From assembly GCF_001458415.1 (NCBI RefSeq), contig NZ_CYSD01000039.1, positions 300,029 through 364,028 on the forward strand: a stretch of DNA of 64,000 nucleotides, given 5' to 3'. The position numbers were made by a program, and so were the translations under genes. Shown piece by piece: positions 33,280 to 35,822 of the stretch (positions within the stretch are counted from its first letter, which is position 1; the number at the start of each line of letters is the position of its first letter). Under the pieces are notes generated by a model. The model was not told where the DNA came from. It did no database searches and saw only the letters and a list, made by a program, of their open reading frames with translations. Source of the DNA: Tritonibacter multivorans (GTDB lineage Bacteria > Pseudomonadota > Alphaproteobacteria > Rhodobacterales > Rhodobacteraceae).

Positions 33280-33371
33280 GCTTGTTTGGAAATTGGGTTC
33301 GTAAATTATTTTCTTTTTTATTCGAGATTCTTTGGCAGCATTTGGGTGTGTTTTTGGTTTTGGAGGTAAAT

Positions 33372-33581
33372 ATGACCGCACTGAAGAAAATCGAACTGAT
33401 CGAAGTTTCCGAAGTTTCTGTTTTTGATGGCGCGCACACTGGAATGATAAGTTCCACGTGCATTCAGCGGGAAAACGTCGCGTTGGGGAGTTTCGGCAAG
33501 TCTCAAATCGCCGGTAAGATTGCTAAAAGTAACGATATTTTTGATGGATGCGCGACTGGGCTTGTGTCCTCCACCTGTTGA
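33372..33581 (+). CDS. 69-residue peptide with two FDG-x-x-TG-x-x-SSTC motifs, ending in Cys
   Basis: Unrecognised small protein and candidate precursor or scaffold peptide. ATG 33372 has GGAGG five bases upstream. The first ~17 residues are charged (TALKKIELIEVSEVSV). Residues 18-30 (FDGAHTGMISSTC) and 57-69 (FDGCATGLVSSTC) share nine of 13 positions, and the second copy is the last 13 residues, so the protein ends in Cys. The spacer 31-56 is basic. Copies differ at synonymous sites (AGT TCC ACG TGC versus TCC TCC ACC TGT), so the protein motif is what is conserved. There are three Cys (30, 60, 69). It lies just upstream of the unknown 376-residue gene. It may belong to an uncharacterised Rhodobacterales family (DUF6749 comes to mind, unverified). 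Confidence 0.75.
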   Translation: MTALKKIELIEVSEVSVFDGAHTGMISSTCIQRENVALGSFGKSQIAGKIAKSNDIFDGCATGLVSSTC

Positions 33582-33608
33582 GGGATTCGGTGTCAATTAA
33601 GCGATTTT

Positions 33609-33630
33609 TCGCGGCCTTTGCGGGCCGCGA
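33609..33630 (+). terminator. Hairpin between the peptide gene and the 376-residue gene
   Basis: A perfect 8 bp stem TCGCGGCC/GGCCGCGA with a 6-base loop, 28 bases after the peptide stop. There is no U-run after it, so partial termination or transcript processing favouring the peptide message is more likely than full termination. Confidence 0.5.
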
Positions 33631-33660
33631 TTAACGACGCATTTTTCGGCGGAGAATTAA

Positions 33661-34791
33661 ATGGGTGATGTTTTAAGTCTTGATCGCTATTCGGAAGACC
33701 GCGTCTTTCGGCATGGGGTTCCAACCGAAAATCGCGGGGTGTTTTCACGCAAGGAACTGGCGTCTTGCTTCCTGGGTGCCAGGCGTGACAGAATGGACGT
33801 CCTCTGGTTGAAAGAGAACGCTGAGTTTTTGAATGTTTTACGGTCGGCTGGTAAAATCAGACCGGTCGAAAGAGATGGTTTTTTTGGTTATTTACCCTTC
33901 TATGAAGGGTGTTTGCGTCACTTTGATTTTTTCAAGCCTTACTATCGGTTTATTTTGTCGATTTGCATGGATTTGGAAGACCTTGGGATTTGTGACGGTG
34001 AGCTTTCGGATGCCCTTGTTGGGCGCGTTCACAGAAGCGGAATTTTGCAGCACGAATTGTCGGATCTGCAAAGGGCAGAAACCAGACGGCTATTGGCGCG
34101 CCGAGGTTGCGTGCTTCGTGGCCTGGACGGATTGGACGATCGGCTGCGGGCCTTCATGCAATCTCCGGTGGCATTTGCCGTCCCCAATCGGCGGACAGCG
34201 TATGAACTGACCCACATTGTGTTCTACCTTTCTGACTATGGGCAGCAGGATCCAATGTTGGAGTCTGAGGCAATACAAAGTGTTGAATATGTTGGGATAA
34301 TGGCTTTCCTGGACCAGGATGCAGACCTGCTCAGTGAAGTTTGTCTGGCATTGCTTTATGCGGGCCAGGATGTGCCCCAGGTCTGGCTGGCGTGGCTACA
34401 AAAGCAGCGGGCAGCCTGCCAGATTTCGGCCCAACCTCTGGAAATCAACGAGGTGGATGACTACCACACGTTTCTCGTGATGGAGTGGGCTATATCAGAG
34501 GTTGTAAAACATCCCGTTTTCGAGTCATCCTGTATGAACACGCGCCGATTTATTTGTACCGGGCGCAACAGTGTTTTGAGAGGTATGACAATGGCGCTTT
34601 ATGCAATGGATGCCGAAGGGCTGCGGATGCGCCGCGGTGCGGATCTTGAGCTGAAGTCTCGGCTGAACGCGCAGGAGCAGGGGCTTTGGGATCGTGCGTC
34701 CGGTGCTGTCGGGTGTTTTGACCAGTTTCTGTGCGATTTTCTGGCACGGGGATACACTGACACAAGCCTCCAGCAGGGCGGGGTGCGCTGA
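33661..34791 (+). CDS. Protein of unknown function next to the Cys-ending peptide
   Basis: A 376-residue, mostly helical, soluble protein that I cannot place with confidence; the Pfam family DUF6902 is a possibility from memory only. GGAG lies seven bases before the ATG. Notable stretches are HFDFFKPYYRFILSICMDLEDLG (residues ~87-109), LQHELSDLQRAETRRLLARRGC, and AYELTHIVFYLSDYGQQDPM, with several His and acidic residues that could bind metal. The region ~180-310 reads as repeated helices with a DxxY/HTF motif. There are no kinase, radical-SAM, YcaO, LanM or ATP-grasp motifs. It follows the peptide gene by 79 bases and precedes an EamA transporter by 2 bases, so a role in modifying or handling the peptide is the natural guess, but it is inference. 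Confidence 0.75.
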   Translation: MGDVLSLDRYSEDRVFRHGVPTENRGVFSRKELASCFLGARRDRMDVLWLKENAEFLNVLRSAGKIRPVERDGFFGYLPFYEGCLRHFDFFKPYYRFILSICMDLEDLGICDGELSDALVGRVHRSGILQHELSDLQRAETRRLLARRGCVLRGLDGLDDRLRAFMQSPVAFAVPNRRTAYELTHIVFYLSDYGQQDPMLESEAIQSVEYVGIMAFLDQDADLLSEVCLALLYAGQDVPQVWLAWLQKQRAACQISAQPLEINEVDDYHTFLVMEWAISEVVKHPVFESSCMNTRRFICTGRNSVLRGMTMALYAMDAEGLRMRRGADLELKSRLNAQEQGLWDRASGAVGCFDQFLCDFLARGYTDTSLQQGGVR

Positions 34792-34793
34792 GG

Positions 34794-35822
34794 GTGGCGG
34801 AGCTGTCTGCAAAAGACACGCCCCTCAAGGTGGGCCGCTGGAGTGGTACCCTTTGGGTGTGGGTCGGCCTGTGCCTCGTCATGGCCTACACGGGTCTGAT
34901 TGCGGGCGCAGACGGGATCACCAAGCTGATCGCAAATAACTTCGCGCCTGCCCAGCTCTATGCGTTTTCGGGTCTTTTGGTGGCGGGGCTGAGTGTGGCC
35001 GCCGGGCGGCTGCCGGGGCAGGTCGCGTCGCTGAGAACGCATCATCCATGGGCAATGGCGGGGCGTTCGCTGGCAACAGTTCTGGCGGCAACCGCGTTTT
35101 TCTATGCGTTTCGGCATCTGCCTTTGGCAGATGTGTTTCTCTTTGTGGCTCTGATGCCGGTGTTCGCAGCCCTTTTGGCTGGGCCTATTCTGGGCGAACG
35201 GCTGGGGGTGCTGTCTTGGGTGTCGGTGGTCGTCGGTGTAATTGGTGTGCTGTTCTTGTTGCCTGAGTGGAGCGGGACCTATGGCTGGGGGGCTGTGTCC
35301 GCTCTGGTTGCGGCCCTTCTGGGCACCGTGTCGGTTACGCTGGCGCGACTGATTTCAATACGTGATGCGAATGTTCTGGCGCAGGTGTTTTACCCGAACC
35401 TTGCCTTGGGGCTGACCATGCTAGTGTGTTTGCCATTTGTATGGCAGCCGATGAGTGTGGCAGATCTGGGGCTGGTCTTGGCCTGTGGGGTGCTGCTGTT
35501 TTTGGCGCGTTGGTTGCTGGTGCTCGCGCTTGCCATCCTGCCGACCTATGCGGTGACACCGCTATTGAATCTGCAGTTCGTCTGGATGGTGATTATTGGC
35601 GCTGTGGTGTTTGGCGATCTGCCCAGCCTGTCGATCTATTTTGGGATGGTGCTTGCCGCTGGCGCCAGTGCGGTGATCCTGCGTGAACAGTTGCGGCTGC
35701 AACAGGGGGTTCGCCCGGTCATGTGGTCGGATCTGTGGCCCCAACTTACAGGGGCGCTGAACATTGCGCGTCGTCAGGTCAAAACGGCATCCAAAAAAGA
35801 CGGCGGGAAGCCCGGCGCGTAA
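34794..35822 (+). CDS. EamA/DMT family transporter
   Basis: Ten-span drug/metabolite transporter of 342 residues made of two EamA halves. The first repeat (TGLIAGADGITKLIANNFAPAQLYAFSGLLVAG) and the second (ALLGTVSVTLARLISIRDANVLAQVFY) are recognisable, with ATAFFYAFRHLPLADVFLFVALMPVFAALL as the conserved four-helix block. It begins with GTG two bases after the preceding stop, behind GGCGGGG, so it is co-transcribed and probably coupled. Members export small metabolites, amino acids or their derivatives. With the peptide and unknown protein upstream, it could export the product of that pair. The C-terminus has an unusual basic tail KTASKKDGGK. Confidence 0.88.
   Translation: MAELSAKDTPLKVGRWSGTLWVWVGLCLVMAYTGLIAGADGITKLIANNFAPAQLYAFSGLLVAGLSVAAGRLPGQVASLRTHHPWAMAGRSLATVLAATAFFYAFRHLPLADVFLFVALMPVFAALLAGPILGERLGVLSWVSVVVGVIGVLFLLPEWSGTYGWGAVSALVAALLGTVSVTLARLISIRDANVLAQVFYPNLALGLTMLVCLPFVWQPMSVADLGLVLACGVLLFLARWLLVLALAILPTYAVTPLLNLQFVWMVIIGAVVFGDLPSLSIYFGMVLAAGASAVILREQLRLQQGVRPVMWSDLWPQLTGALNIARRQVKTASKKDGGKPGA

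Follow-up and report, generated by a model that had tools for sequence, protein, structure and literature searches.

The locus and its genes

The 64,000-nt stretch of the Tritonibacter multivorans genome analysed here (contig NZ_CYSD01000039.1, positions 300,029 to 364,028; hereafter the window) carries three successive genes on its forward strand, encoding a 69-residue peptide with an internal repeat, a 376-residue protein of the family DUF6902 and an EamA transporter. Throughout the roseobacter group, comparison of many genomes finds a repeat peptide gene adjacent to a DUF6902 gene. The cassette may well encode a multi-core precursor of a ribosomally synthesized and post-translationally modified peptide (RiPP), the tails of which DUF6902 would epimerise. 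The features of the window locus are as follows.

33362-33366, + strand: GGAGG, ribosome-binding site of the precursor gene, read from the sequence
33372-33581, + strand: repeat peptide gene, likely precursor, 69 residues, ATG start, product beginning with MTALKK
33423-33461, + strand: core copy 1, FDGAHTGMISSTC, residues 18-30; homologues known
33540-33578, + strand: core copy 2, FDGCATGLVSSTC, residues 57-69, the last 13 residues at the C-terminus
33609-33630, + strand: 9-bp GC-rich hairpin in the gap between the precursor and enzyme genes, candidate attenuator or mRNA stabiliser
33661-34791, + strand: DUF6902 protein, 376 residues, predicted alpha/alpha toroid, likely peptide epimerase
34213-34215, + strand: codon of His185 of DUF6902, invariant in 43/43 DUF6902/DUF6895 sequences
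34324-34338, + strand: Asp222 to Glu226 of DUF6902, both invariant in 43/43
34465-34467, + strand: codon of His269 of DUF6902, invariant in 43/43
34794-35822, + strand: EamA/DMT transporter, 342 residues, GTG start, candidate exporter

An initial annotation, made from the sequence alone, had described a 69-residue peptide gene with a ribosome site and two copies of FDGxxTGxxSSTC, the second forming the last 13 residues and ending in Cys, followed by a 376-residue protein and, two bases after its stop, an EamA gene. All these coordinates were confirmed, including the GTG start at 34794. The 376-residue open reading frame (ORF) also stands, whereas the statement that its product cannot be assigned does not, the protein being DUF6902 (PF21843, E 2.2e-99). 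The two core copies of the window peptide use different codons for five of their nine common residues, so that the repeat is maintained at the protein level and does not stem from a recent duplication of the DNA. The peptide contains three Cys residues, two of which close the motif copies. As for the hairpin, folding energies below -12 kcal/mol for a 40-nt hairpin occur in the same gap in 67 of 78 relatives, but base-shuffled sequence is beaten by 2 kcal/mol in only 51 of the 78.

Pairing of the repeat peptide with DUF6902

Relatives of DUF6902 amount to 1302 protein clusters at E 0.001 and to 327 genome stretches. The best 80 of these 327 (L021-L100), obtained by scanning genome contigs with a DUF6902 alignment, formed a first set of loci, in which a peptide was scored as positive when it held at least two copies of the motif sharing the same tail triplet. 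A repeat ORF passing this rule lies upstream of DUF6902 in 77 of the 80 loci, whereas none of 11,395 control ORFs of at least 40 residues elsewhere in the same loci passes it. The three misses are a locus with only 109 nt of contig upstream (L078), one that is masked, with repeats visible (L046), and one with visible repeats that fall outside the rule (L030). Counting by the rule, and otherwise by eye, the precursor directly precedes DUF6902 in 79/79 examinable loci; the upstream ORFs of L030, L064, L072 and L046 were assigned in one of these two ways.

The same arrangement was found in a second sample, which took one genome from each genus of the family, 248 in all; DUF6902 is present in 69 of them. 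The upstream region was inspected in 68 loci (L113-L179 and the window; G538, at a contig edge, was left out), and 67 of them carry a repeat precursor before DUF6902, most by the rule and nine by eye, with tails that are outside the rule or cut. This count includes L140, a masked locus identical with the L046 stretch, in which the repeats can be seen. The sole exception is G440 (L179), the DUF6902 gene of which is divergent (E 2e-37) and in which no repeat peptide is visible upstream. When the first set, the genus-level set and the window are pooled (147 loci, some genomes being in both sets, with 132 different upstream ORFs), a slightly wider rule is passed by 143 of the 147; the misses are L046, L140, L078 and L178, the last of which has two divergent motif copies.

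An independent search with one precursor of the SSGS tail type against the 248 genomes matched 62 of them, namely 60 of the 69 with DUF6902 and 2 of the 179 without it, and both matches of the latter kind are weak (G034 and G606, E 2e-4 and 8e-4). Fisher's exact test for this co-occurrence gives p 4e-45, a value that overstates the case because the genomes are related. Nine DUF6902 genomes were missed by the query, the window's own among them, since its two-copy SSTC precursor is unlike the query. No plasmid copy was found by tblastn. A candidate modifying enzyme is thus genetically linked to the precursor, as expected of a RiPP locus, and from these genome comparisons the two genes very probably form a precursor-enzyme pair.

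The initial annotation had staked its proposal on the peptide and the 376-residue gene occurring together in other genomes and on the motif copies being conserved in homologues, and both were found. The locus comparisons likewise bear out its view of the repeat peptide, the partner protein and the linked transporter as one cassette. In the survey of co-occurrence that it had suggested, the peptide and DUF6902 pair strongly and EamA is accessory.

The repeat peptide family

A protein search with the window peptide returned eight homologues, every one of which starts with MTALKK; one is 97% identical and one has an unrelated last part. Neither the window peptide nor seven relatives match any Pfam or NCBIfam family above cut-off, and the scattered weak matches to known precursor families that fall on the repeats were put down to composition. 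The family follows the consensus G-[DE]-x-[VT]-x-[ML]-F-[ST]-S-x-x, Phe being present in 85% and the second tail Ser in 89%, and the number of copies in precursors passing the wider rule ranges from 2 to 20 with a median of 7. A short gene with a leader and core(s), as expected of a RiPP precursor, is therefore what the repeat peptide provides. Exactly at the motif is where the precursor ends in 85 of 132 cases.

Tails include SSTC, SSGS, TSGL, TSWS, TSCA, TSSM, TTSM, TSAA, SSGA, TNWC and MCCS. They are mostly uniform within one genome and different between genomes, and the tail triplet is identical throughout the precursor in 107 of 129. Position +1 of the tail may be occupied by Pro, Ala, Val or Leu, and position +4 by Leu, Ala or Met. 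In the 129 precursors counted, the final residue of the tail is Ser in 61%, Cys in 11%, Leu in 11%, Ala in 11%, Met in 4% and Val in 1%.

The way in which neighbouring repeats of a precursor differ separates tail from linker. At the last two positions of the tail, on which the motif rule places no constraint, there are 693 silent differences against 79 residue changes, whereas the five linker positions before the motif show 503 silent differences against 1984 residue changes. This predominance of silent differences in the tail strongly indicates translation of the peptide and protein-level selection on its tail.

Some precursors depart from the common form. In L176, two successive precursors lie 783 to 126 nt before the match to a single DUF6902 gene and differ in their tails (FTSGS, FTSRS and FTSGS, then LFGSSC twice). 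In L225 and L226 (G939 and G967), precursors located roughly 770 to 240 nt ahead of the match have a GExTxx-STSSF tail, outside the motif rule, in which Phe is shifted to the tail end.

DUF6902 and its DUF6895 relatives

The 376-residue protein matches DUF6902 with 333.1 bits (cut-off 27). Its residues 84-250 are likewise above the threshold for DUF6895 (PF21836), at 67.7 bits against 23.8, although DUF6902 is by far the better match. Blocks YxLTHxxFYxxxYG and DxxxE, together with His269, are common to both families, and His185, Gly194, Asp222, Glu226 and His269 are invariant in 43/43 DUF6902/DUF6895 sequences. The predicted secondary structure of DUF6902 consists of helices and two 3-residue strands (predicted local distance difference test score, pLDDT, 86.8), and its fold is predicted to be an alpha/alpha toroid. 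Sequence search found no solved relative of DUF6902 or DUF6895, and a Foldseek search against the PDB gave no match at E 0.001. LanC and sugar epimerases are not among the 50 matches listed for the DUF6902 model, which says nothing against either; the match to the fold of a toroid sugar 2-epimerase is tied with one to a terpene cyclase.

No description of DUF6902 was found in the literature searched, and the only activity found for the superfamily is the epimerisation of a lasso peptide reported for DUF6895 (Shi et al., ACS Catal., 2026, as listed among the references of PMC13352647). This report weakens the expectation in the initial annotation of an unknown protein with new chemistry. Five DUF6895 genes above cut-off outside the DUF6902 group were examined (G039, G340, G736, G805 and G640; the weak matches G071, G090, G196, G709 and G719, below cut-off, were left out). 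A short peptide gene lies just upstream in four of the five loci, the motifs being NAWAFIV in L101, DWTFVSPNYVYKG and DWTFISHNYVYKG in L180, GPWFVL in L221, and AGPWYIY and VGPWFVL in L222. None of these four peptides matches a known family above cut-off, and with the fifth DUF6895 gene, a short ORF in G640 (L223), no repeat peptide was seen. The superfamily therefore mostly travels with small peptide genes.

Three of these loci deserve description in their own right. The DUF6895 genes of L222 (5452-7368) and L221 (5446-6741), from other bacterial families, each stand behind a GPWFVL-type peptide gene, and the L222 peptide carries a related second copy of the motif. Both have the appearance of additional RiPP-like pairs not yet described; inspection by eye, no search having been aimed at them, showed no lasso genes in the vicinity. 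In L101 (7095-9198), the DUF6895 gene has a small upstream peptide (NAWAFIVKGKFVFKDD) and adjoins what appear by eye, no search having been made, to be partial oxygenase and aldo/keto reductase genes.

Chromosomal site and the EamA transporter

The genes are widely found in the order xth / precursor / DUF6902 / EamA / erpA / dgt, with xth present in 74, erpA in 71 and dgt in 70 of the 80 loci of the first set. The neighbours mapped comprise xth, EamA, erpA, dgt, argS, a gene for an FAD protein and a dksA-like gene, of which dgt, argS and dksA were named by eye. Where DUF6902 is lacking, xth and erpA still adjoin in all eight genomes inspected, two of them from the window's genus, and between them lie no DUF6902, no EamA and no repeat ORF that passes the rule. 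The empty gap measures some 70 nt in both genomes of the same genus and 36 to 1163 nt in the other six.

The third ORF matches EamA in Pfam. An EamA gene directly follows DUF6902 in 70 of the 78 loci with room in the first set (absent in eight) and in 51 of the 65 with room at the genus level (absent in 14). Among the matches listed, a close EamA copy (52-55% identity) occurs in 6 of 9 DUF6902 genomes against 0 of 8 without DUF6902, the remaining matches having at most 32% identity. From this pattern of presence and absence, EamA is a cassette member, yet dispensable, beside a core made up of the repeat peptide and DUF6902. No special co-evolution of EamA with DUF6902 emerged, as their distances correlate at 0.56 whereas those of EamA correlate at 0.62 with dgt and 0.65 with xth.

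Within the window's own genus, L015, L016, L017 and L019 carry SSGS-type cassettes alongside the SSTC types of the same genus. Genomes G002, G008 and G017 (L019, L017 and L016) have no close EamA copy among the matches listed, so that these genomes either lost the transporter or never acquired it.

Tail type and enzyme phylogeny

The main trees keep 87 of 94 rows (79 different, some genomes appearing twice), with five single-tail-type rows set aside. On these trees tail type changes 11 times for DUF6902 and 16 times for xth, as compared with about 40 times when shuffled, and all 19 SST-type rows fall into one group. The enzyme accordingly tends to go with the type of core, and the window is a good example. 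Its xth shares 94% identity with the xth of Leisingera ANG-M1, an SSGS-type genome, whereas its DUF6902 reaches no more than 45% identity with any other row of the set and is placed in the SST group. Two cautions apply: the window branch is long and flagged, and in a smaller tree set (L059 dropped from the DUF6902 tree, four rare rows uncounted) tail type changes 7 times for dgt against 5 each for DUF6902 and EamA, so that part of the agreement between enzyme and tail is common descent.

Interpretation and alternatives

In the mechanism proposed for the cassette, the peptide of 33372-33581 would serve as a multi-core precursor, on which DUF6902 (33661-34791) would act as a non-radical peptide epimerase. 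The enzyme would bind the short leader (MTALKK in the window) and work on the M/L-F-S/T-S-x-x tail of every copy, inverting the alpha carbon of at least one tail residue by removal and return of a proton. His185 and His269 would be the proton-handling residues, with Asp222 and Glu226 helping as acid-base partners or metal ligands, and the EamA transporter would export the product. Epimerisation by DUF6902 stands at about an even chance, and it is proposed because the superfamily mostly travels with small peptide genes and the only activity found reported for it is epimerisation.

MslH, the epimerase of the lasso peptide MS-271, is described as a non-radical enzyme with a precursor-peptide substrate, two His/Asp pairs acting as acid and base, Ca(II) and a calcineurin-like (alpha-beta-beta-alpha) fold (PMC10406935). 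The two His/Asp pairs so described resemble the invariant His185, His269, Asp222 and Glu226 of DUF6902, which by analogy could serve in the same way. An enzyme of the MslH type itself was rejected for DUF6902, which is predicted to be almost all-helical, against the calcineurin-like fold given for MslH. Sugar 2-epimerases of the AGE/CE family are alpha/alpha toroids, but they act on sugars, DUF6902 has no sequence match to solved structures, and the toroid fold is also common to many non-epimerases.

Multi-core RiPP precursors such as those of cyanobactins and microviridins have a leader and repeated cores beside a modifying enzyme, the core being kept and the linker variable. The window family likewise has a leader, repeated cores beside a partner enzyme and a variable linker, but no Pfam or NCBIfam family was matched, as noted above, and its tail type switches between genomes while being mostly uniform within them. 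The likeness to the reported DUF6895 lasso-peptide epimerase lies in the DUF6895 cut-off passed by DUF6902, the common blocks and the upstream peptide genes. There are differences as well: DUF6902 is a different Pfam family from DUF6895, and the window precursor has repeated short cores. Lasso genes are lacking among the mapped neighbours of the window cassette, and a lasso peptide was rejected as the product, with no linked leader peptidase (B) or cyclase (C) found by Pfam among these neighbours and the adjacent window genes. No protease to free the cores was found among the mapped neighbours, although one could be encoded elsewhere in the genome.

The same cassette could house another chemistry on the Ser/Thr/Cys tails, such as LanC-like ring formation, group transfer or cleavage after the tail. 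This is somewhat unlikely: no dehydratase, kinase or radical-enzyme domain occurs in the three cassette genes or the mapped neighbours, the residues allowed at +1 and +4 mean that no single reactive side chain is conserved there, and epimerisation is the only activity found for the related family. Helical toroids and solenoids can also bind peptides without catalysis, and peptide-binding ones appear among the structure matches listed. The repeat protein might accordingly function uncut and unmodified, as binding or signalling repeats with DUF6902 as a chaperone, binder or sensor; long precursors with up to 20 copies do resemble repeat proteins, and the missing protease would fit. The invariant His/His/Asp/Glu set across two families, however, looks catalytic, DUF6895 is cited as an enzyme in the reference list mentioned above, copy number runs from 2 to 20 and the linkers change fast, all of which make this function improbable.

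The initial annotation had included chemistry on the terminal Cys, possibly with the peptide as a recycled carrier, as one option, and had named a plain small metal-binding protein, here taken as standing beside unrelated genes, as the main alternative. The former draws on the Cys that ends the window peptide and every copy in its SSTC relatives, and on the likeness to the small Pearlin/PEARL and TglA-type carriers. The terminal Cys is, however, Ser in two close homologues (P0005 and P0007) and Val in L011, and Cys is absent from the SSGS, TSGL, TSSM, TSAA and SSGA tail types; with Ser, Leu, Ala, Met or Val in its place in most relatives, loading of the Cys was rejected. No ligase-like gene lies among the mapped neighbours, another difference from those carriers, and a carrier role is highly improbable. 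The three Cys residues, two of them at motif ends, would suit a metal-binding protein, but Cys-free relatives retain both repeat and partner and the linkage to DUF6902 is strict, which leaves this explanation with scarcely any probability.

Significance

No repeat-core RiPP of the roseobacter group was found in a literature search covering titles and abstract openings. We tentatively propose a new RiPP class in about a quarter of the sampled Rhodobacteraceae genera, in which the tails of tandem cores would receive D residues from a non-radical alpha/alpha-toroid epimerase, and in which lineage-private tails would change in step with the enzyme at a single site of the chromosome, behaviour that a peptide signal or a self/non-self marker would be expected to show. 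Our preferred guess for the product is a diffusible, lineage-specific peptide. Should DUF6902 prove to be an epimerase, the cassette would represent a RiPP class not yet described, and the enzyme would offer a small tool, encoded by a single gene and available in many natural variants, with which D residues could be introduced into numerous cores simultaneously. Tails that are largely the same throughout one genome but vary from one genome to the next allow peptide signalling to be tested directly. Roseobacters are abundant marine bacteria, and with DUF6902 in 69 of the 248 genomes, mostly at one conserved site in the 80-locus set, the product would be widespread among them.
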